Positions 7,533 through 17,827 of a DNA stretch of 19,387 nucleotides are shown here, one piece after another; the stretch's first letter is position 1; each line of letters opens with the position of its first letter. The position numbers and the translations under genes are program-made. The DNA comes from Deltaproteobacteria bacterium RIFOXYA12_FULL_61_11. GTDB taxonomy: Bacteria > Bdellovibrionota_F > JAHFAK01 > YA12-FULL-61-11. A model generated the notes under the pieces. The model made no database searches, had not been told where the DNA came from, and worked only from the letters and a program-made list of their open reading frames with translations. The stretch spans positions 866 through 20,252 of the forward strand of contig MGSU01000021.1 of NCBI GenBank assembly GCA_001799195.1. The letters are read 5' to 3'.

Positions 7533-8276
7533 TCAGCGCACCGGGACGTCGAACCCTTTGTCCGGATAGGGTTCTCGCTTCAGGGAATAGTGCCACCATT
7601 CCTTCTTGTAGTTCTCGAAGCCATGCTGTTCCATCAGGGTCAGGAGCAGCAGGCGCAAGGCGCGCTGGTTTGGACCGACAAGACAGCTTTCTGTCGTGGC
7701 CGCTGGGTGCAGGCAGTCGTAGCCGGTCCCCAGGTCGAGCGAACCGTCCGCTGCTCTCCCCGAGGGCGGCGCGGTACAGTCTCCCCCGGCGCTTCCCGCT
7801 TGGGTAGGACCGGGAGGGAGGGGGACCAAGGTCAGGTCCACGGTGCTTCCCCGGGAATGCGCCGATCGGTGCGCGAAATACCCCTGCCGGAACAACTCCT
7901 CCCGCGGCACCGTCGGATGATACTCGGGGTTGAGTCTTGCCCCTTCCTTCTCTTGTGCCCAGCGCGAGAAATCCCGCACCGCCCGCTCCGGCCGGTAGCA
8001 ATCGTAGACCTTCAACCCCAGCCCGTAGGGCCGAAGCGCGGCCTGAACCCCGGCCAAGGCTTCCACCGCGGCACGGGTAAGGAGGCAACGATTGACCTCG
8101 TACCCGTCAACCGGCCGACCGAGCAGGTTGCGGCTCCCCGCGTAGCGCAGCTCCACCACCAACCCCGGTAACGCGGCACCTGCATCGACGAAATCCTTGG
8201 GTAAAGTCTCTGAACCGAAAACCGGACCGACGATCGCGGACAGGAGCAGCCAGAGCACGGTCAGGGCGTTCTTCAT
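7533..8276 (-). CDS. VanX/DdpX-type D-Ala-D-Ala dipeptidase (peptidase M15D)
   Basis: The 247-residue protein has an N-terminal signal peptide (MKNALTV, hydrophobic core, cleavage near VFG-S), so it acts in the periplasm. The zinc dipeptidase signatures are present: NRCLL, YDCYRP with Arg95, SAHSRGSTVD giving zinc ligands His140 and Asp147, and EWWH with catalytic Glu226 and ligand His229. The seven-residue His-Asp and three-residue Glu-His spacings are those of VanX. The family cleaves D-Ala-D-Ala, in peptidoglycan turnover or vancomycin resistance. No vanHA-type ligase or dehydrogenase is nearby, so turnover is more likely than resistance. Residues 156-200 carry a Gly/Cys-containing segment (Cys167, 188 and 198) at the usual variable loop. 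A GAGG site precedes the ATG at a proper distance. The frame stays open well upstream, but that stretch overlaps the neighbouring gene and has no sensible coding character. It lies 10 bp after the membrane-protein gene. Confidence 0.9.
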   Translation of the reverse strand: MKNALTVLWLLLSAIVGPVFGSETLPKDFVDAGAALPGLVVELRYAGSRNLLGRPVDGYEVNRCLLTRAAVEALAGVQAALRPYGLGLKVYDCYRPERAVRDFSRWAQEKEGARLNPEYHPTVPREELFRQGYFAHRSAHSRGSTVDLTLVPLPPGPTQAGSAGGDCTAPPSGRAADGSLDLGTGYDCLHPAATTESCLVGPNQRALRLLLLTLMEQHGFENYKKEWWHYSLKREPYPDKGFDVPVR

Positions 8277-8286
8277 CGGAACCTCG

Positions 8287-8895
8287 CTAACGGCCCGGTT
8301 CACGTCCGGGAGAGGCGAAGAGGAAAACCCCGGGCACCACCACGGTGAACCACAGAATGGAGAAGAAGGCCAGGAAGCGCAGGGGAGCGCGCCGGTAGTC
8401 GGTCGCCGCTCGATCTTCGGGAGCCAAGATGATCCGGCCCTCGCTTCCTGGAGCGGCTTCGGGGGTTCCACCGTCGACCAGGACCAAGCGGTAGCGATGC
8501 GCGGCCCGTAAGGCCAGCTTCCCCAGCACCTCCTGCCGCGCGTCCCCCGAGGCCCGATCGGCCCGCGCTCCGTCGAACTGCCCGCTTGCCACCGTACGGC
8601 CCTGCTCCTCGAGGTAGAAGGCGAGCAGTGAGCTACGGGTGGCAGAGGGTTCAGGTTCGAAAACCAACGTATAGCTCCCGGTCCAAGCCGGCTCGAACAT
8701 ACGCTCCCGGGTAGCCCCCGCGGCAGGCCCGGGTCCTTGGCATCGCGAAGCCTCGAGGACGTGTTCCCGTGCGCGGTAGTGATACCCAATCAACCCCGCG
8801 CAGGCCGACCAGACGAACCCGGCCATGGCCAAGGCTCCGGCGAACCGGCGACCTTCGAGCTGGCGCAGGTGCCCCGTGGCTCCCCACCTTCGCAA
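8287..8895 (-). CDS. Two-TM membrane protein of unknown function
   Basis: With the TTG at 8895 the product is 202 residues: a short basic N-terminus (RRWGATGHLRQLEGRR), a transmembrane segment (about 18-40, MAGFVWSACAGLIGYHY), an extracytoplasmic region of about 120 residues, and a second transmembrane segment near the C-terminus (FLAFFSILWFTVVVPGVFLF) followed by a short Arg-rich tail. The TTG is favoured because AGAGGGGGG lies just upstream; a TTG at 8961 and an ATG at 8826 are alternatives. The middle region has beta-like patterning (YTLVFEPEP, RYRLVLVDGG). I do not recognise the family. It is first in the set with the VanX-type dipeptidase and the B3/B4 protein, with 10 bp to the former, so an envelope role alongside the periplasmic peptidase is plausible. 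A hairpin sits immediately 5' of the ribosome site. Confidence 0.72.
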   Translation of the reverse strand: MRRWGATGHLRQLEGRRFAGALAMAGFVWSACAGLIGYHYRAREHVLEASRCQGPGPAAGATRERMFEPAWTGSYTLVFEPEPSATRSSLLAFYLEEQGRTVASGQFDGARADRASGDARQEVLGKLALRAAHRYRLVLVDGGTPEAAPGSEGRIILAPEDRAATDYRRAPLRFLAFFSILWFTVVVPGVFLFASPGREPGR

Positions 8896-10456: not shown

Positions 10457-10696
10457 TTATTCCGAGGTCAACCTGGAGCGGATCTCCCGTTCGGCCACCA
10501 ACCAGTCTTCCAGGGGATCGCCGCCTTCGAAGTTGCGCTTCAAGGCCTGGTAATAGGCCGCCTCGGCCACCATCTTCTGGCGATCCTCGGGTTCCTGGTT
10601 CGGCTTCATGTAGGCTATGAGATTTATTTTCAATGGGTTAATCATAGAGGTGACCGTGGATTCGAAACCGTTCTTCTGTCGCTGTGGTCGTGCCAT
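10457..10696 (-). CDS. DUF2934 small protein
   Basis: The ATG at 10696 has GAGGGAG about eight bases upstream and gives a 79-residue protein. Residues 32-75 match the DUF2934 pattern: a helix with EDRQKMVAEAAYYQALKRNF, then GGDPLEDWLVAEREI, that is, an A-x-Y-x-x-A...G-x-x-L-E-D-W-x-x-A-E motif. The first 30 residues are basic and variable. The function of DUF2934 is unknown; members are short, soluble and common in delta-proteobacteria and rhizobia. It lies 211 bp after the diguanylate cyclase on the same strand, so it may be the tail of that operon or have its own promoter. The frame stays open upstream into the cyclase gene, but that part is Cys/Arg-rich shadow sequence. Confidence 0.8.
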   Translation of the reverse strand: MARPQRQKNGFESTVTSMINPLKINLIAYMKPNQEPEDRQKMVAEAAYYQALKRNFEGGDPLEDWLVAEREIRSRLTSE

Positions 10697-10879
10697 GAGA
10701 ATTCTCCCTCGGTTGATCATAAGACCGTCGCCCTGTGCATAGATCAGGCCGTTCATGACAACGACGGTCAACACCTCCGCAACCTGCTGATTGAAAAAAA
10801 CACCCTCGCCTTCCCGGGCGGCCTCGGGCCCTTGTCCTCCGCGATTTCTGCGATCAAAGTGATGGAAAGGAACTCTATT

Positions 10880-10911
10880 CTGATCGGCACGGCAGCGTGC
10901 GGGGCGATCAG
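10880..10911 (-). other. Strong hairpin spanning the diguanylate cyclase stop codon
   Basis: CTGATCG (10880-10886) pairs with CGATCAG (10905-10911) and GCACG (10887-10891) with CGTGC (10896-10900) around a GCAG loop, leaving a four-G bulge. The TGA stop of the cyclase (10908-10910) lies in one arm. On the minus strand the hairpin is followed by AATAGAGTTCC, which is not a T run, so it is more likely an mRNA end-stabilising or pause element than a classical terminator. Confidence 0.45.
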
Positions 10912-11825
10912 AGCACGGTAGGCACGGTACTGAAGGCAACCCGGTTCTTCCCCGCCCGTTTTGCGCGATAGAGGGCTCGATCCGCATGCTCGATCAGCTC
11001 GTGGGGTGAGGAGACGGAGTGGTCACAGATGGCAACCCCCAGGCTGATGGTGATAGGCAGGTCGCCAACACCAAGTTCCATGGCCTTCACCCGGATGCGT
11101 TCCGCGATGGTCCCGACTTCCACGGCACTGCTGGTGAAGGGGAGGACCACGACGAACTCCTCTCCTCCGAAGCGGCAGCAAATATCGGAGTCCCTGACCT
11201 GTTGTTTCAGCACCTTGGCGAGGTCAATCAGGATCTGGTCCCCGGCTTGGTGCCCGTACCGGTCGTTGACTGCCTTGAAGTCGTCGATGTCCAGGAGAAT
11301 GATGGAAACCCCGGCCCCGTAACGGCGGTGACTGCGGAATTCCAGCTCGAGGAGCTCGTAGAAGCTGGTGTGGTTGTACAGCCCGGTCATCCTGTCGCGC
11401 ATGGCATTCTTCGCGATCTCCACGAGATTCTCTTCGGAAATGACCGTGGGAGAAATGAAATCCTTGTTGATGTTCGAGAAAAAATCCAGGGTGGCCACGG
11501 TGATGCGGATGTTCCGTTTGAGGATCTCCGAGAGCAGGTGTTTGTGCTTGAGGACTTTCCCCCACAAGGTCTCGGCGATCTCTGGTGCGAAGTAGTGGTG
11601 AGAGATCGCATAGAACAAATCGGAGTAGAACAGTAAGCCTCGTACGGTTTGTTGCTCGTTGATTTCTCTCTTTTCTTCCTCGGTCATCGACCTGTCCCCG
11701 GCAAAGGCGGAAACGAGTTCCACGCTCATGCCCTCGGGCGTCGTGGTCCGGCGCAACCGATCGATGTTGCATTCATCGTTCGGCTTGCGAGGGGACCGTT
11801 CGTCTTTATCCTTCGAGGTGCTCAT
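10908..11825 (-). CDS. GGDEF diguanylate cyclase
   Basis: This 305-residue soluble protein makes c-di-GMP from two GTP. The GGDEF domain starts at DRMTGLYNH (about 144-152), has the metal-binding LLDIDDFKAVND, and the active site GGEEF at 220-224. The inhibitory site RDSD (211-214) sits five residues before it, so product feedback should be intact. Residues 60-135 form a helical region (FYSDLFYAISHHYF, EIAETLWGKVLKHKHLL, TLDFFSNI) of unknown type that probably holds the sensing or dimerising function; there is no membrane segment. The first 55 residues are charged and disordered-looking. The ATG overlaps the end of the pirin-like gene by 20 bases and GAGGG lies upstream, so translation is probably coupled. 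It is the third gene of the leftward radical SAM operon. Confidence 0.94.
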   Translation of the reverse strand: MSTSKDKDERSPRKPNDECNIDRLRRTTTPEGMSVELVSAFAGDRSMTEEEKREINEQQTVRGLLFYSDLFYAISHHYFAPEIAETLWGKVLKHKHLLSEILKRNIRITVATLDFFSNINKDFISPTVISEENLVEIAKNAMRDRMTGLYNHTSFYELLELEFRSHRRYGAGVSIILLDIDDFKAVNDRYGHQAGDQILIDLAKVLKQQVRDSDICCRFGGEEFVVVLPFTSSAVEVGTIAERIRVKAMELGVGDLPITISLGVAICDHSVSSPHELIEHADRALYRAKRAGKNRVAFSTVPTVL

Positions 11826-12759
11826 GGGCCCTCTTCGGACATACTACGGTCATGAGACCATGACCTTGGATGAGTACGAGGAGAATGCTCGGGTCGATTT
11901 CTCCGATCGGATCCACCTCGGGTTCCTCTCCGTGGAGGTGGTGCAGGATACTGGTCTGGGGGTGGTTCTTCCTCTCCAGGAAAACCTCGGGAGTGACCGG
12001 ACCCTGGGGTTCCGTGTGACACGTGTGCCCGGTCATCGTTTTCCAGGGGCTGGAAGATGCAAGGCCCACGTCGATGAGCAACAACTCGGTGGGGCCTTTG
12101 GCTGTCAGTGAGACCAAGGGTTCATTGACGAAGCAGATCCCATCCCCTTGGGTCAGGACGAGGTCATGCACGATCACCGTGCCGAGCACGATATACAGCC
12201 AGGCGTTCCGGCTCGGCGCGAGCTCATGCATGAGGTGGTGGCCCGACTCGAGGATGGCCGAGTAAACGACGGCATCCTGGTGGATACACAGCGAGCCCTT
12301 GCGTCCGTCCTGGGAAGCGATCGCGCAGAGGAGATTCTTGCGTTGGGCTGCCGTGAAACGTTTCAGTTCGTGAGCCCGCTCGATCCCGACCTGGGAGGGC
12401 AACAGGGAGATCCGGAACAGGTGTACCCCATCGGAGCGGGACACACTCGTCTCCTTGCATTCGATGCCGACGCCGGTGGACAGGTGCTGGAACTCGCCCG
12501 CTTCGATAACCCCGGAAGTACCCGTGGAGTCTTTCTGGGACAGGGAGCCCTGATAGACATAGGTAATCGTTTCGGACTCTTCTTCGGGCGTTGAGCCGGT
12601 GCTTTCTCCCGGGCTCAGCTTCATTTCGTCGAAGGCCAGCAAGGAACTGATACCATCGGAGATAGGTCCCCGATGATCCTGGGCAAAGAACGAATGCCAG
12701 AGTTCCTGGTTCCCTTGTTGGACATGGCGGCGCTGGTTGTTCCGGAGCACGGTAAGCAT
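11806..12759 (-). CDS. Pirin-like bicupin protein lacking the usual metal ligands
   Basis: This 317-residue cytosolic protein follows the YhhW/pirin fold: ITYVYQGSLSQKDSTGTSG, VIEAGEFQHLSTGVGI, VHLFRISLLPSQVGI, then a second cupin with GRKGSLCIHQDAVVY and GPTELLLIDVGL (to about residue 232). Against E. coli YhhW, aligned from memory, the ligands His57, His59, His101 and Glu103 become Thr57, Glu59, Cys101 and Glu103, so canonical Fe binding and quercetinase activity are probably lost; a different metal site using Glu59, Cys101 and Glu103 cannot be excluded. Residues about 233-317 are an extension absent from YhhW, with His-rich HHLHGEE and hydrophobic ILLVLIQGHGLMTVV. The ATG overlaps the radical SAM stop as TAATG, with AAGAGG upstream, and its own 3' end overlaps the cyclase start. 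The role is unknown; a sensor or scaffold is possible. Confidence 0.88.
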   Translation of the reverse strand: MLTVLRNNQRRHVQQGNQELWHSFFAQDHRGPISDGISSLLAFDEMKLSPGESTGSTPEEESETITYVYQGSLSQKDSTGTSGVIEAGEFQHLSTGVGIECKETSVSRSDGVHLFRISLLPSQVGIERAHELKRFTAAQRKNLLCAIASQDGRKGSLCIHQDAVVYSAILESGHHLMHELAPSRNAWLYIVLGTVIVHDLVLTQGDGICFVNEPLVSLTAKGPTELLLIDVGLASSSPWKTMTGHTCHTEPQGPVTPEVFLERKNHPQTSILHHLHGEEPEVDPIGEIDPSILLVLIQGHGLMTVVCPKRAHEHLEG

Positions 12760-14435
12760 TAGTTCGGACCTCTTGAGATGCCGGGCTGTTCGGACCGGGG
12801 AGTAGATCGGGAGTACGAGGCTGTTCGCTCGTCCGTGGCCGGAACCTCCACCAGGTTAGCGGCGGCAGAAGCGGGACGGAGAGGTTCCCGCTCGAACCCG
12901 AACGTCTCGGGAACCGCCTCCCGTTCGAGTTCCGCAAGAGCCTGCCTGAGCCGGGGTACCACGTGCTCGCGCGTGTAAATAATGAGGTGCTCGCCCTGGA
13001 CCGCATGGACGATGGCCTGCCTAACCTGCCTGCGGCCCTTTGGTAACGCTTTGGCCAGCAGCCGCCAGAAATACCCGCGACGTTGACTGAGGATACCGAT
13101 GTGCCAGAGCGCACCCAGCAAGGCTCTCACCTCGCTGAAGGTCGAGGGGCGCGTCCCGGAGAGGTTCCCCACGCGGTCGAGGTAGGCCTCGCAGCGGCCG
13201 TAGAACTCCTTCGGCGAGCACTGCCACTCGAGGAAGGCCCCATACCCCCGCAGCAGCGTCGCTTCATCCATCCTGGGGGTGAAGTTCGGGCGGGTGAACG
13301 GGTCTCCGGTCGAACGGTGGCGCACGCGGCCCTCGGCTTGGAGCCGGCGCCAGAGCGCTGTTCCGGGCAGCGCCGTCAGGATGCCCACCATGGCGAGCGG
13401 CATGGGTTGCCGGGAGAGGAAGTCCCGTTGCATGGCGAAAATCTCGGGGCCATCGCTGTCGAACCCGACGATGAAACCGCCCATGACCTCGATGCCCGCT
13501 CGGGTGATCGTAGCAACGGCCTCCGACAGATCGAACCGGAGGTTCTGGTGCTTGTTGGCCTGTTCGAGGGCCGCGAGCGAGGGGGTTTCGAGGCCGAGGA
13601 AGACGGCCGAGAACCCGGCCTCCACCAGATCGTGCAGGAGTTGAGGATCTGCCGCCAGGTCGACACTCGCCTCGGTATAGAGCTCGAAGGGGTAGGCACG
13701 TTCGATTTGCCAATCGCGCAGCAGGGGTAGGAGGCGTTTGACCGCGGGTTTATTGCCGATGAAGTTGTCATCCACGAAAAAGATCGTGCCCCGGTAACCC
13801 ATGCGGTAGATGGCGTCGAGCTCATCGAGGACTTGCAGGGAGGTCTTCACTCTCGGCTTGCGGCCGAAGATCTCGACGATGTCGCAGAACTCGCATTGGA
13901 ACGGGCAACCCCGGGAGTACTGCACGCTCAACGAGGCATACGCCGACCTTTCGAGGAGGTCGAAACGCGGAACGGGCACGGTCGTCAGATCGGGGAAGTT
14001 CGTGGGGGGGTCGAGGACCCTCCCCTTCCCGGGTCCTTGCGTCAAGGCCCACAACAACTCCTCGATCCTACCTTCGGCCTCACCCCGGAACACGACCTCC
14101 GCCTCGAGGAACAGCTCCGGGCTCGTCGTGGGAGCCGGGCCACCGACTGCCACGGGTACCGCCCGGGCATGGGCGCATGCGATGATCTCGTGCAGCGACT
14201 CTTGTTGGATAAGGAGTCCTCCCGTGAAGACCACCTCGGCCCAGCGGAGGTCCTCGTCGGTGAGTTCTCGCAGATTGAGGTCGATCAGCCGCAAGGACCA
14301 GTGTTTCGGCAGCAGCGCCGCGATCGTGAGCAGGCCGAGCGGGGGCAAGGACGCGCGTTTGCCGATGAGGCGCAGACCATACTGGAACCCCCAGTAGGTG
14401 ACGGGAAAGCGGGGATAGACGAGCAAAACGTTCAT
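12759..14435 (-). CDS. B12-binding-type radical SAM enzyme, DUF4070 / HpnP-like
   Basis: The 558-residue protein has an N-terminal cobalamin-binding-type Rossmann domain (1-130: MNVLLVYPRFPVTYW, PPLGLLTIAALLP, RLIDLNLREL, VAVGGPAPT), then a radical SAM core with CPFQCEFC (Cys177, Cys181, Cys184) that binds the 4Fe-4S cluster. The following FCDIVEIFGRKPR, FFVDDNFIGNK and GFIVGFDSD, and the C-terminal helical region (about 400-500), fit the DUF4070 group that includes hopanoid C-2 methylase HpnP. It probably methylates or rearranges an unactivated carbon of a lipid or secondary metabolite; the substrate is not deducible. The last 40 residues are low-complexity. AAAGGA precedes the ATG. It heads a three-gene set coupled by overlaps and is preceded by a sigma-54 promoter. 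No hopanoid cyclase gene is in view. Confidence 0.9.
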   Translation of the reverse strand: MNVLLVYPRFPVTYWGFQYGLRLIGKRASLPPLGLLTIAALLPKHWSLRLIDLNLRELTDEDLRWAEVVFTGGLLIQQESLHEIIACAHARAVPVAVGGPAPTTSPELFLEAEVVFRGEAEGRIEELLWALTQGPGKGRVLDPPTNFPDLTTVPVPRFDLLERSAYASLSVQYSRGCPFQCEFCDIVEIFGRKPRVKTSLQVLDELDAIYRMGYRGTIFFVDDNFIGNKPAVKRLLPLLRDWQIERAYPFELYTEASVDLAADPQLLHDLVEAGFSAVFLGLETPSLAALEQANKHQNLRFDLSEAVATITRAGIEVMGGFIVGFDSDGPEIFAMQRDFLSRQPMPLAMVGILTALPGTALWRRLQAEGRVRHRSTGDPFTRPNFTPRMDEATLLRGYGAFLEWQCSPKEFYGRCEAYLDRVGNLSGTRPSTFSEVRALLGALWHIGILSQRRGYFWRLLAKALPKGRRQVRQAIVHAVQGEHLIIYTREHVVPRLRQALAELEREAVPETFGFEREPLRPASAAANLVEVPATDERTASYSRSTPRSEQPGISRGPN

Positions 14436-14527: not shown

Positions 14528-14543
14528 AGCAAAATGTAAGCCA
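14528..14543 (-). promoter_or_regulatory. Sigma-54 (-24/-12) promoter for the radical SAM-pirin-GGDEF operon
   Basis: On the minus strand this reads TGGCTTACATTTTGCT. It has the invariant GG and GC dinucleotides ten bases apart and matches the conserved parts of TGGCAC-N5-TTGCW (TGGC and TTGCT). A start about 12 bases downstream (near 14517) gives a leader of about 80 bases to the ATG at 14435. A sigma-54 activator gene lies directly divergent, which supports a functional promoter. Confidence 0.75.
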
Positions 14544-14592
14544 AAAATAAATATCCCCAATAATCCCAATAGACAAATGATATTAACCATTC

Positions 14593-14602: not shown

Positions 14603-14653
14603 TATTGCCGATCAAAACGAGCTAGCGTCTTTTCATTCTGATCGAGGTATACG

Positions 14654-16333
14654 ATGCGTGTTGAAGAACTCCATCAGAAGGAGCTTCTCGAGTTGGATCC
14701 CGCCGGGGGCCTCCTCCGTTTCGCCGGGCAACGGGTCATCCTCATCGACGCCGTGGCCATGGGGCTCCTCCGTCACTATCTCGTGCATAACTTCGGCCTG
14801 CATGCAGCGCGCGCGGTTCTCACCCAGTTCGGTTTCGCTCATGGCTGGAGAATGGCGGCGGCCTTGCAAAAGGGCTACAAGTGGGACAACAACACAGACT
14901 GGCGCCGGGCGGGCACCCTCGTCTATTCCCTCGAGGGTCTCTTCCTCGCCCAACCCGGCAATGACGACCTCCTCTCGAAAGAAGGGGCGATGCTGCTCGC
15001 TTCCTACGAGGCAGAGCAACACCTCCTGCACTTCGGCCGTTCGGACTCGGCGGTCTGTTGGACCATCTGCGGCCTCATGAGCGGCTACGTCAGTCACACC
15101 GAGGGGGAGGAGATCTACGTTCTCGAAGACCGCTGCTTGGGCCTCGGACATGCGGCCTGCCACCTCCTGGGGCGCACGCGTGCAGAATGGGGCGAGGAAC
15201 ATGCAGGAGAGTTGGCCTACTTCGATGCCTTGCGTTTACAGGAGTGCCTCGAGGTTTCCCTCAGCAGGGTTACCGAGAGCTTGAAAATCGCGGAGGACAA
15301 GCTCCGGGCCCATAAAAAGGTCCTGGTCAGAGTGCTGAAGGACCAGGTGGATCCCCTGGGGCTCATCGCCAAGAGCCCCAAGATGCGGAACGTGGTGGAT
15401 CTCGCCCGCCGGGTGGCGAAGGTGGATGCCACCGTGCTCATCACCGGCGAGAGCGGCGCGGGGAAAGAACGCATTGCGAGGCTCGTCCATGACGAGTCCC
15501 CGCGGGCTTCCGGACCGTTCGTCGCGGTCAACTGCGCGGCGATCACCGAGACCCTGCTCGAGAGCGAGCTGTTCGGTCACGCGCGGGGGGCGTTCACCGG
15601 CGCGTCTTCCGATCGTCCCGGGTTGTTCGAGGCCGCCAACCATGGAACTCTGTTGTTGGACGAGATCGGAGAGGTGTCGCCGGGTATGCAGGTCAAGCTC
15701 CTCCGGGTACTCCAAGAACGCGAAATACGTCGGGTGGGGGAGAACAAGAGCCGGGCGGTGGATGTGCGGCTTCTCGCGGCCACCAACCGCGATCTCGCCC
15801 ACAGGGTCGCTGAAAACACCTTCCGGCAAGACCTCTATTACCGCCTCAAGGTCGTGGAGCTGAACGTGCCGTCGTTGCGGGACCGCAGGGACGACATCTT
15901 GCCGCTCGCCCGTCTCCTGCTTGCAAACGCGGCCGCGCGGATGGATCGTACGATCTCGGGCTTCTCCCCGAATACCGCGGATCAGCTCTTGCGGTACGAC
16001 TGGCCGGGCAACGTTCGCGAACTCGAGAACGCCCTGGAACGGGCCGTCGCCCTGGCGTGCGGCACGCGCGTGGAACTCGAGGATCTGCCCGAGGAGGTAC
16101 GGCAGGTGTGCGCGAAACCGGTGGTCACTACCGGCTCCGTACGAACGCTCGACGAGATGGAGAAGGACTACATCCTCGCCGTACTGGACCTCAACGGCGG
16201 GAACCAGACGCGCACCTCGCAACAGCTCGGCATAGGTTCGGCAACCCTCTACCGGAAGCTCAAGAAGTATGAGACCCTCGGTGAGGTGTTGCCCGAGAAA
16301 GGTGCTACTATGGTGCCGAAACCGGAAGCGTGA
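14654..16333 (+). CDS. XylR/DmpR-type sigma-54-dependent transcriptional activator
   Basis: The 559-residue activator has a complete three-part architecture. Residues about 15-180 are the XylR_N plus V4R ligand-sensing region, with the typical [31 protein letters not shown] and EWG; such domains bind small hydrophobic or aromatic effectors. A helical B-linker (about 190-230) follows. The AAA core has Walker A GESGAGKE (265-272), the sigma-54 contact loop GAFTGA (312-317), Walker [10 protein letters not shown] (332-340) and the [13 protein letters not shown] box (448-460). Residues about 496-540 are a Fis-type helix-turn-helix ([20 protein letters not shown]). It should activate sigma-54 promoters when its ligand binds. 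A GAGGT site lies before the ATG. It is divergent from the radical SAM gene with a sigma-54 promoter between them, and 12 bp upstream of a second radical SAM gene on its own strand. Confidence 0.95.
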
Positions 16334-16345
16334 GCGAGGCCCGGG

Positions 16346-17827
16346 ATGAAGATCGACGATTTCCTGCCGGCGCAGGTCGAGCGTTTGGCCAGGGAAAAGC
16401 GTCCGGTCGCCCTGCACGCCGACCTCGACCTGCTGTTGGTCAATCCCCCGCCCTGGATGCCCCTCACCCCGCCGCTCGGATGCGTGGCTTTGGCCGGCTA
16501 TCTGCTCGACCGAGGGCTCGGGGTCCAGGTCCTGGACCTCAACCTCGAACTCCTCTTGCAGCATCCCGAGCTGGCGACGCTGTGGCGCATGGAACAAGCC
16601 GCCGCGTGGGCCGAGGCCGAGCGCTCGGCGCAGCTCTTTTCGCGCCTTGCCCCTGCCGTGGAGGCGTGGGCGAGAGCGATTGTGCAGGCTGCTCCGCGCT
16701 GCCTGGGCTTCTCGGTCATGGGCGGGAAGCAACGCTTCGTGCGCGCCTTCCTGACTCAACTCTTAGAACTCGGCTATGAAGGCGGCGTGCTCTTCGGCGG
16801 GCCTGCCTGCATCAACTACGGTCTGCGGCAAGAGTTGGCCGCGCCGCTCGGGCGGCACGAACGGGTCGCCTTCGTGCTCGGCGAGGGAGAGGGAGCCGCG
16901 CTGCGCTTCCTCGACTCTCTGCGGAAGGGTAGGCCCGTCTCTACCGGCGAGGGCTTGTTGCTGCTCGGAGACGAATCCCCGGACCTGCGCCTGCCGACCG
17001 GCCACCTCCCCCTGGACGACCTGCCCCGGCCGCGCTTCGACCTCGTGCCCTCGCACGGCTACCTGACCGAGGCCCTGCCTCTGGAATGGAGCCGGGGTTG
17101 CGTCGGACGCTGCGCTTTCTGCGACGTGGCCACGATGTGGGGTGGCTTCCGGATCAAGTCGGCCGGGAAGCGGTTGGCCGAGCTCGAACACCTCGTCGGG
17201 ACGACCGGCACCACCGTGTTTACGCCGGCCGATCCTGCCCTGAACAGCGCCCGCCGACCGCTCTTGGAGCTCTGTCGAGCCCTCGTCGCCAGAGGTCTTG
17301 CGGTCACCTGGTCGGGACATGCGGTCGTCTCGAAGCTCTACACGGCCGAGGATTACCGGCTCATGCGCAGCGCGGGGTGCCGCCACCTGGAGTTCGGTGT
17401 GGAGAGCGGTTCGGACCGCGTGCTCGCGGCCATGGGGAAACATCGTACAGTCGCGGAAGCCGAACAAACCCTGCGGCTGTGTCACGAGTCGGGCATCCAC
17501 ACCACCCTCTATCTGATCGTCGGGTTCCCCGGCGAAGACCGCGACGACCTCGAGGCCAGCGCGGCCTTCCTCCGGCGCAACCGAGCCTGGATCGACTCGG
17601 TGCGGTCCGTCAATGCCCTCTATCTCCAGCGAGAGACCCCGCTCTGGGAGCGTCGAGGCAGCCTCGGTCTGGAGTTCGGCGGCGCCGAGAGCCACGAGGG
17701 ACATCACTGGAGCGTCGGCTCCAATACGTTGGAAGAAAGGCAGTATCGGGTGCGCCGGCTCCTCGAGGTGATCGACGAACTCGGTATCCCCTATCATCTC
17801 GCCGCGGGGCTGGACGAGTTCTCCTGA
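16346..17827 (+). CDS. Second B12-binding-type radical SAM enzyme
   Basis: The 493-residue protein starts 12 bp after the activator gene and is probably co-transcribed. Residues 25-190 are a cobalamin-binding-type domain (LDLLLVNPPPW, PPLGCVALAGYLLDRG, VQVLDLNLELL, VLFGGPACI, GEGEGAALRFLDSL), including a longer helical insertion at 70-115. The radical SAM cluster motif is CVGRCAFC (Cys252, Cys256, Cys259), followed by CRHLEFGVESGSDRVL and TLYLIVGFPGEDRDDLE, which are typical of the core barrel. There is no DUF4070-like tail, so it is not a recent duplicate of the radical SAM gene at 12759-14435. The reaction is unknown: methylation, methylthiolation or ring chemistry on a lipid or secondary metabolite are the family options. 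Its last 34 bases overlap the convergent phosphatase gene. Confidence 0.92.
   Translation: MKIDDFLPAQVERLAREKRPVALHADLDLLLVNPPPWMPLTPPLGCVALAGYLLDRGLGVQVLDLNLELLLQHPELATLWRMEQAAAWAEAERSAQLFSRLAPAVEAWARAIVQAAPRCLGFSVMGGKQRFVRAFLTQLLELGYEGGVLFGGPACINYGLRQELAAPLGRHERVAFVLGEGEGAALRFLDSLRKGRPVSTGEGLLLLGDESPDLRLPTGHLPLDDLPRPRFDLVPSHGYLTEALPLEWSRGCVGRCAFCDVATMWGGFRIKSAGKRLAELEHLVGTTGTTVFTPADPALNSARRPLLELCRALVARGLAVTWSGHAVVSKLYTAEDYRLMRSAGCRHLEFGVESGSDRVLAAMGKHRTVAEAEQTLRLCHESGIHTTLYLIVGFPGEDRDDLEASAAFLRRNRAWIDSVRSVNALYLQRETPLWERRGSLGLEFGGAESHEGHHWSVGSNTLEERQYRVRRLLEVIDELGIPYHLAAGLDEFS

Follow-up and report, generated by a model that had tools for sequence, protein, structure and literature searches.

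YhhW-type pirins with an eroded metal site, linked to a XylR_N-V4R sigma-54 activator

The window, a stretch of 19,387 nucleotides of DNA from Deltaproteobacteria bacterium RIFOXYA12_FULL_61_11 (contig MGSU01000021.1), encodes a pirin-family bicupin in which three of the four metal ligands are replaced. This protein belongs to a small clade of pirins, all of which have damaged metal sites. The explanation that best accounts for the whole, and that we consider likely, is that the clade pirins are kept under selection, belong to a sigma-54 regulon and serve as ligand- or protein-binding partners without a metal. Because the ligands are lost and the small family is apparently switched on by a neighboring sigma-54 regulator, the window pirin is probably a metal-free partner in a stress response rather than an enzyme or a partner of a cyclase.

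Fold and metal-site residues of the window pirin

The pirin gene and the parts of it that are discussed here are the following.

11806..12759, minus strand: pirin-family bicupin of 317 amino acids with an eroded metal site (Pfam, YhhW alignment, Foldseek)
12589..12591, minus strand: codon ACG of Thr57, at the position of YhhW His57 (codon reading, YhhW alignment)
12583..12585, minus strand: codon GAA of Glu59, at the position of YhhW His59 (codon reading, YhhW alignment)
12457..12459, minus strand: codon TGC of Cys101, at the position of YhhW His101 (codon reading, YhhW alignment)
12451..12453, minus strand: codon of Glu103, the sole ligand kept (YhhW alignment)
11809..12063, minus strand: C-terminal extension, residues 233-317, 85 amino acids after residue 232 (GC pattern, Pfam, structure model)

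Two Pfam domains were assigned to the pirin ORF: Pirin (PF02678) on residues 10-116 (E 1.3e-13; 51.3 bits against a cut-off of 26.1) and Pirin_C_2 (PF17954) on residues 147-231 (E 3e-21; 75.9 bits against a cut-off of 22.9). Its top relative in the PDB by sequence was Escherichia coli YhhW (1tq5; E 1.9e-38), with residues 4-142 aligned without gaps, and the same entry was the top Foldseek match of the predicted fold (E 1.3e-16). The structure model, which was built from three sequences, had a mean pLDDT of 50.8 and a pTM of 0.55; with this modest quality, it supports the predicted fold and not the side-chain geometry. The pirin ORF is a genuine YhhW-type two-barrel protein, and it shares its two-barrel fold and both Pfam domains with YhhW (1tq5, 6uts), which is of the quercetin 2,3-dioxygenase type.

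YhhW has a metal site formed by His57, His59, His101, and Glu103, and entry 6uts holds its complex with Ni(II). In the pairwise alignment with 1tq5, these residues correspond to Thr57, Glu59, Cys101, and Glu103 of the pirin ORF. The earlier note had proposed this assignment, and it was confirmed by the gap-free 1tq5 alignment and by a MAFFT alignment with ~68 homologues, where the ligand columns were identical. The three-His/one-Glu site of the YhhW-type metal-dependent pirins and quercetinases is absent from the pirin ORF. Unlike in YhhW, not only three of the four ligands but also most of the conserved positions of the N-terminal pocket are replaced.

The C-terminal extension of about 85 residues, which had also been proposed before, was of the expected length. 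It does not appear to be a functional module, as the relatives of the pirin ORF end at 217-275 amino acids and the extension is predicted to be disordered in the structure model (pLDDT 21-30). No Pfam family matched it. The GC content at third codon positions was 0.68 in the extension and 0.76 in the remaining pirin gene, and the codon-position GC pattern was similar, so the extension reads as coding. It is a lineage-specific tail, predicted to be disordered.

A clade of pirins with damaged sites under purifying selection

The searches gathered ~70 homologues. The clade found among pirins has 11 members, the pirin ORF and ten more from nine other genomes. None of the 11 has the full ligand set or a His at position 59. 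In the alignment columns of 57 ordinary pirins, His at 57, 59, and 101 is invariant; duplicates, fragments, rows on very long branches, rows in which other pirin types matched over a short stretch, and the divergent L093 (HHQL) were excluded from this comparison.

The closest relative of the pirin ORF is encoded by a Bradymonadales metagenome-assembled genome (51% identity) and has Tyr/Asn/Arg/Glu at the four ligand positions; we take the Bradymonadales group to belong to the phylum Myxococcota in GTDB naming. The two copies in genome G535 (46% identity) have Arg/Arg/His/Glu and His/Arg/Arg/Glu, the clade pirin of G051 (42%) has Tyr/Arg/His/Asp, and that of G453 (36%) has His/Ala/His/Glu. A profile search with these six members added five more, from the phylum to which the Bradymonadales genome belongs, with His/Arg/Tyr/Glu, Leu/Asp/His/Glu, Glu/Arg/Tyr/Glu (twice), and Gln/Thr/His/Val. 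Identical sets within the clade occur only in two species of one genus. Across the 11 members, position 57 is Thr, Tyr, Arg, His, Leu, Glu, or Gln, position 59 is Glu, Asn, Arg, Ala, Asp, or Thr (Arg in six members), and position 101 is Cys, Arg, His, or Tyr. Glu103 is kept in nine members, and the other two have Asp and Val. No homologue found carries Thr/Glu/Cys/Glu, which therefore did not turn out to be a shared set, and since the sites are all damaged, the common trait is the loss of the site. Thr/Glu/Cys/Glu as a conserved new metal set was likewise rejected because the ligand positions vary across the clade.

In the maximum-likelihood tree, a branch with 100/100 support sets the first six clade members apart from all other sequences, and they lie next to the YhhW group. 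The five later members were placed by profile score, with a best value of 9e-95 compared to 3e-65 for the best ordinary pirin, and by their 45-59% identity to clade members over the matched stretch. A search of genome contigs with the single pirin protein as query gave no match, and the same kind of search with a two-row alignment as query recovered the Bradymonadales relative. Viral contigs yielded one ordinary pirin and no other match. Among the matches listed in the plasmid searches, the relatives were at most 33.6% identical.

The change is not confined to the ligands. When the 11 clade members were compared with the 57 ordinary pirins, the clade mostly lacked W17, H22, F26, Y29, R41, N44, F54, M62, H75, S102, Q116, and W118, which are near-invariant in the ordinary pirins, whereas C145, H175, and D199 were near-constant gains of the clade. 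The loss of the ligands together with some 12 canonical N-terminal positions indicates that the N-terminal pocket region was remodeled as a whole. The earlier statement that the motifs around the site are well kept thus holds for framework residues (G71, G80, G88, Q91, S107, P121) and fails for the 12 other near-invariant positions, which are mostly lost in the clade. By its sequences, the clade is a distinct group of YhhW-type pirins from which the mononuclear metal site has disappeared, along with most of the conserved pocket in the N-terminal barrel.

The dN/dS ratio was ~0.05 between G730 and G762, which are of the same genus (a rough figure, as dS is near saturation), 0.37 between the two G535 paralogues, and 0.29 between the pirin ORF and the Bradymonadales protein. 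These ratios indicate that the clade pirin genes are under purifying selection despite the loss of the site. The earlier claim of substitution rather than decay is borne out by ten relatives without the full set, the 100/100 support for the six-member clade, and this selection. No close homologue in the 11-member clade has the standard ligands, and the suggestion of a repurposed pirin is supported by the clade-wide loss of the site in a maintained gene.

The sigma-54 activator, the putative promoter, and the candidate regulon

The pirin gene is the second gene of an operon with the order B12/radical SAM, pirin, GGDEF. The operon, its divergent neighbor, and the elements between them are as follows.

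14654..16333, plus strand: sigma-54 activator with XylR_N, V4R, AAA+, and HTH_8 domains, divergent from the operon (Pfam, residue alignment)
12759..14435, minus strand: B12-binding/radical SAM/DUF4070 protein, first gene of the operon, overlapping the pirin gene by 1 nt (ORF list, Pfam, neighborhoods)
10908..11825, minus strand: GGDEF diguanylate cyclase with intact RxxD and GGEEF motifs, overlapping the pirin gene by 20 nt (ORF list, Pfam)
14528..14544, minus strand: -24/-12 sigma-54-type element TTGGCTTACATTTTGCT, ~93 nt upstream of the ATG of the radical SAM gene and directed toward the operon (motif score)
14632..14642, minus strand: enhancer-like site 1, ATCAGAATGAA, ATCA-N3-TGAT with one mismatch (motif comparison)
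14611..14621, minus strand: enhancer-like site 2, CTCGTTTTGAT, with two mismatches, 21 bp from site 1 (motif comparison)

Other genes of the window were also noted. A second radical SAM protein (16346-17827) follows the activator on the same strand. A DUF2934 protein (10457-10987) follows the GGDEF gene and overlaps it by 80 nt, so its start as listed is probably too early. For the ORF at 7533-8789, which encodes a D-Ala-D-Ala dipeptidase (Peptidase_M15) domain, the listed start is probably too far upstream.

Judged from gene linkage, the conserved partner of the clade pirin is the XylR_N-V4R sigma-54 activator and not the GGDEF cyclase. The activator is linked to a clade pirin in seven genomes (G000, G483, G763, G730, G453, G535, and G051), at distances from immediately divergent up to 50 kb on one contig; it lies 9 kb away in G453, 14 kb away in G535, and on the same 53-kb contig in G051. 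No activator was detected at E 1e-40 in the draft genomes G639, G762, and G668, where a clade pirin is present; in two of these three, the pirin is on a contig of <5 kb. Ordinary pirins with the full site are divergent from a like activator, with a sigma-54 site between the two genes, in G676, G724, G754, G756, and G593, and an ordinary pirin lies near a like activator in G621 and G457. Since the ordinary pirins share the divergent activator and the promoter, this pairing is older than the loss of the metal site. In G457, an ordinary pirin gene (L103, 6343-7038) that lies ~2 kb from a XylR_N-V4R regulator is interrupted by in-frame stops, which reflect either a broken gene or an assembly error.

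Like DmpR, MopR, and XylR, the window activator has the XylR_N, V4R, AAA+, and HTH_8 domains and the zinc ligands; the Cys/Glu/Cys/Cys set of DmpR/MopR is kept in all 14 activators compared. In contrast to DmpR/MopR, it has Tyr in place of the phenol-positioning His100 (XylR itself has Tyr) and Leu in place of the strictly conserved Trp128, two residues whose roles in the aromatic pocket of DmpR/MopR-type sensors are described (PMC7264223). The phenol-positioning pair is thus absent, and the effector of the window activator is probably not phenol. Trp128 is replaced by Leu or Val in all seven activators linked to clade pirins, whereas His100 and Trp128 are both kept in the seven near ordinary pirins. 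In their trees, the two kinds of activator separate along one branch, as do the two kinds of pirin. The coincidence between Trp128 and the metal site therefore amounts to about one evolutionary event, not 14. Activators without Trp128 also occur in genomes without any pirin match (G377, G394, G450, and G477), so the regulator can do without the pirin. Activator sensor domains up to 76% identical were found in several phyla.

The candidate promoter TTGGCTTACATTTTGCT scored 13.2 of 15.1, and sites this good occur ~0.01 times per 150 nt on one strand. Sigma-54 sites were also found before other clade pirin operons, and both the promoter and the enhancer motifs return upstream of most of the further pirin operons that were compared. 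The inverted repeat ATCA-N3-TGAT, with at most one mismatch, was present in 12 of 14 upstream regions, compared to a mean of 0.95 and a maximum of 4 in 500 rounds of shuffling, with the motif having been defined from the same 14 regions. Its copies often form pairs at a spacing of 20-22 bp and for the most part lie 80-125 bp upstream of where the -12 element ends; the putative pair of the window has a spacing of 21 bp, as in G377 and G639. The motif is likewise combined with a sigma-54 site immediately upstream of the G453 clade pirin, in a region that did not contribute to the definition of the motif. Whole-genome counts of this combined pattern were noisy and separated the genomes poorly (62 hits in the 14 genomes that have the regulator and 32 in the 12 that lack it). 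The sequence TTGATCAATTGATCAA, which we take to be the UAS consensus of the DmpR type, was rejected, as the upstream regions do not fit it.

Within the window's own genome, an enhancer-like site with a -24/-12 pattern was observed at L161 (1501-2522), L164 (1-1446), and L159 (1-1591). The genes after the pattern encode a coiled-coil protein and a DUF4398 lipoprotein, an alpha/beta hydrolase and an FMN reductase, and a collagen-repeat lipoprotein, respectively. By their upstream patterns, these genes are probable further members of the regulon. Genes for DUF4398 and OmpA/DUF4398 lipoproteins precede the clade pirin on the same strand in G051, G639, G730, and G762. The co-regulated genes likely include those for OmpA/DUF4398 lipoproteins, CsbD, the alpha/beta hydrolase with FMN reductase, and a CBS protein.

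Proposed role and alternatives

From the sequence features above, we infer that the pirin ORF would carry no metal in vivo and would lack dioxygenase activity, and that the radical SAM-pirin operon would be activated by the divergent XylR_N-V4R activator. In such a regulon, which would be of the stress type, the activator would bind the paired ATCA-N3-TGAT sites and fire the -24/-12 promoter of the operon. The pirin would then act without a metal by binding a ligand or a protein, and weak metal binding is possible in those clade members that retain two or three ligands (HRRE, HAHE). Speculatively, such binding would modulate the response or feed back on the regulator. By analogy with YhaK beside YhaJ, the most plausible role of the pirin would be that of a feedback modulator of the stress response or of its regulator.

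The E. coli protein YhaK (2vec), a redox-sensitive bicupin, is the closest known parallel to the clade pirin. Its His ligands are also replaced (Arg/Tyr/Tyr/Glu by alignment), and its gene, too, is divergent from a regulator gene. The regulators differ, as YhaJ is LysR-type and the one described here is a sigma-54 activator. YhaK falls outside the clade in the tree, although on a very long branch (3.45 changes per column). Its Cys122, reportedly the reactive cysteine, aligns with Gly125 of the pirin ORF and is not conserved. The divergent yhaK and yhaJ genes adjoin each other and are tied to the breakdown of aromatic or quinol-like compounds; once yhaK is deleted, dinitrotoluene, hydroquinone, and catechol induce the YhaJ target yqjF much more strongly, and the roles proposed for YhaK are those of a YhaJ co-factor or of a participant in removing the inducer (PMC5031710). 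In the literature covered, which included few subscription papers, no account was found of a metal-free pirin subfamily or of sigma-54-controlled pirins.

Several other explanations were weighed against that of a metal-free partner. A sequencing or assembly error might be suspected in a draft genome of 342 contigs from a poorly sampled class, but the reading frame is intact and independent genomes show a like loss in a supported clade; the relatives refute this explanation, which is next to impossible. It is quite unlikely that a rebuilt acidic or thiolate set (Glu59 or Glu60/Glu61, Cys101, and Glu103) binds a metal and makes the pirin a metalloprotein with a new specificity. Glu59, Glu60, Glu61, Glu63, Cys101, and Glu103 do all lie in the segments that bear the site, and Glu103 is widely kept in the clade. 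However, no relative has this set, positions 57, 59, and 101 vary widely, the frequent Arg59 is ill-suited to a cation site, and the conserved neighbors of the site are lost as well. Alternatively, the N-terminal barrel could be decaying, with only the C-terminal barrel (Pirin_C_2) still useful and the gene heading for loss. The C-terminal half, which holds the clade-specific C145, H175, and D199, did change more slowly in all three dN/dS comparisons, and the ligand substitutions differ from lineage to lineage. The ratios of the N-terminal barrel nevertheless remained below 1 (0.06, 0.43, and 0.36), and all 11 members have an open frame and an intact set of framework residues, which makes continuing decay unlikely.

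Two further explanations start from the overlapping genes of the operon. The earlier note had suggested that the pirin might work with the coupled cyclase, as its sensor or its partner. The intact GGEEF and RxxD motifs of the cyclase and the 20-nt overlap, which makes co-translation probable, are consistent with this, but the GGDEF gene adjoins the pirin gene in the window alone: no adjacent GGDEF gene was found at the other clade-pirin loci examined, and the G535 locus L096 has only a different, membrane GGDEF ~1.9 kb downstream. Cyclase partnership was thus rejected as the main reading and is improbable. The 1-nt overlap with the B12/radical SAM gene could instead point to an accessory protein of that enzyme. 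This gene order is kept in G535, where a 68% identical radical SAM orthologue lies directly upstream of the clade pirin, 24 nt apart (L096). G535 has two paralogous radical SAM-pirin units (L095, 18653-19662, and L096, 7417-9738). Before the second paralogue, what is left of the radical SAM gene is a decayed remnant, whereas the pirin gene and its promoter have been retained; the remnant also bears witness to the gene order. On the other hand, no radical SAM gene of the same kind was found beside the clade pirin in eight genomes (G483, G051, G639, G730, G762, G763, G668, and G453); G483 and G453 have no homologue at E 1e-60, and G051 has a weaker one elsewhere in the genome. We doubt, therefore, that the pirin is an accessory of the radical SAM enzyme.

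Within the preferred explanation of a metal-free partner, an evolutionary course may be sketched tentatively, although we would not count on it. In the ancestral circuit, an aromatic-sensing sigma-54 activator would have driven a metal-dependent pirin that destroyed the inducer; in the present clade, regulator and pirin would have changed jointly, the one losing its aromatic-pocket Trp and the other its metal, and the former enzyme would have become a ligand-binding co-sensor or a feedback protein acting on its own regulator, in parallel to YhaK/YhaJ in enterobacteria.

Many bacterial pirins are called quercetin 2,3-dioxygenase by homology, and this name is very probably wrong for the clade. 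The clade ties pirins to a defined regulator, an enhancer motif, and candidate co-regulated stress genes, and these links make the role of metal-free pirins directly testable. The presence of metal-free pirins beside regulators in two unrelated settings, the clade described here and YhaK/YhaJ, suggests that such pirins may have a general role as regulatory partners.
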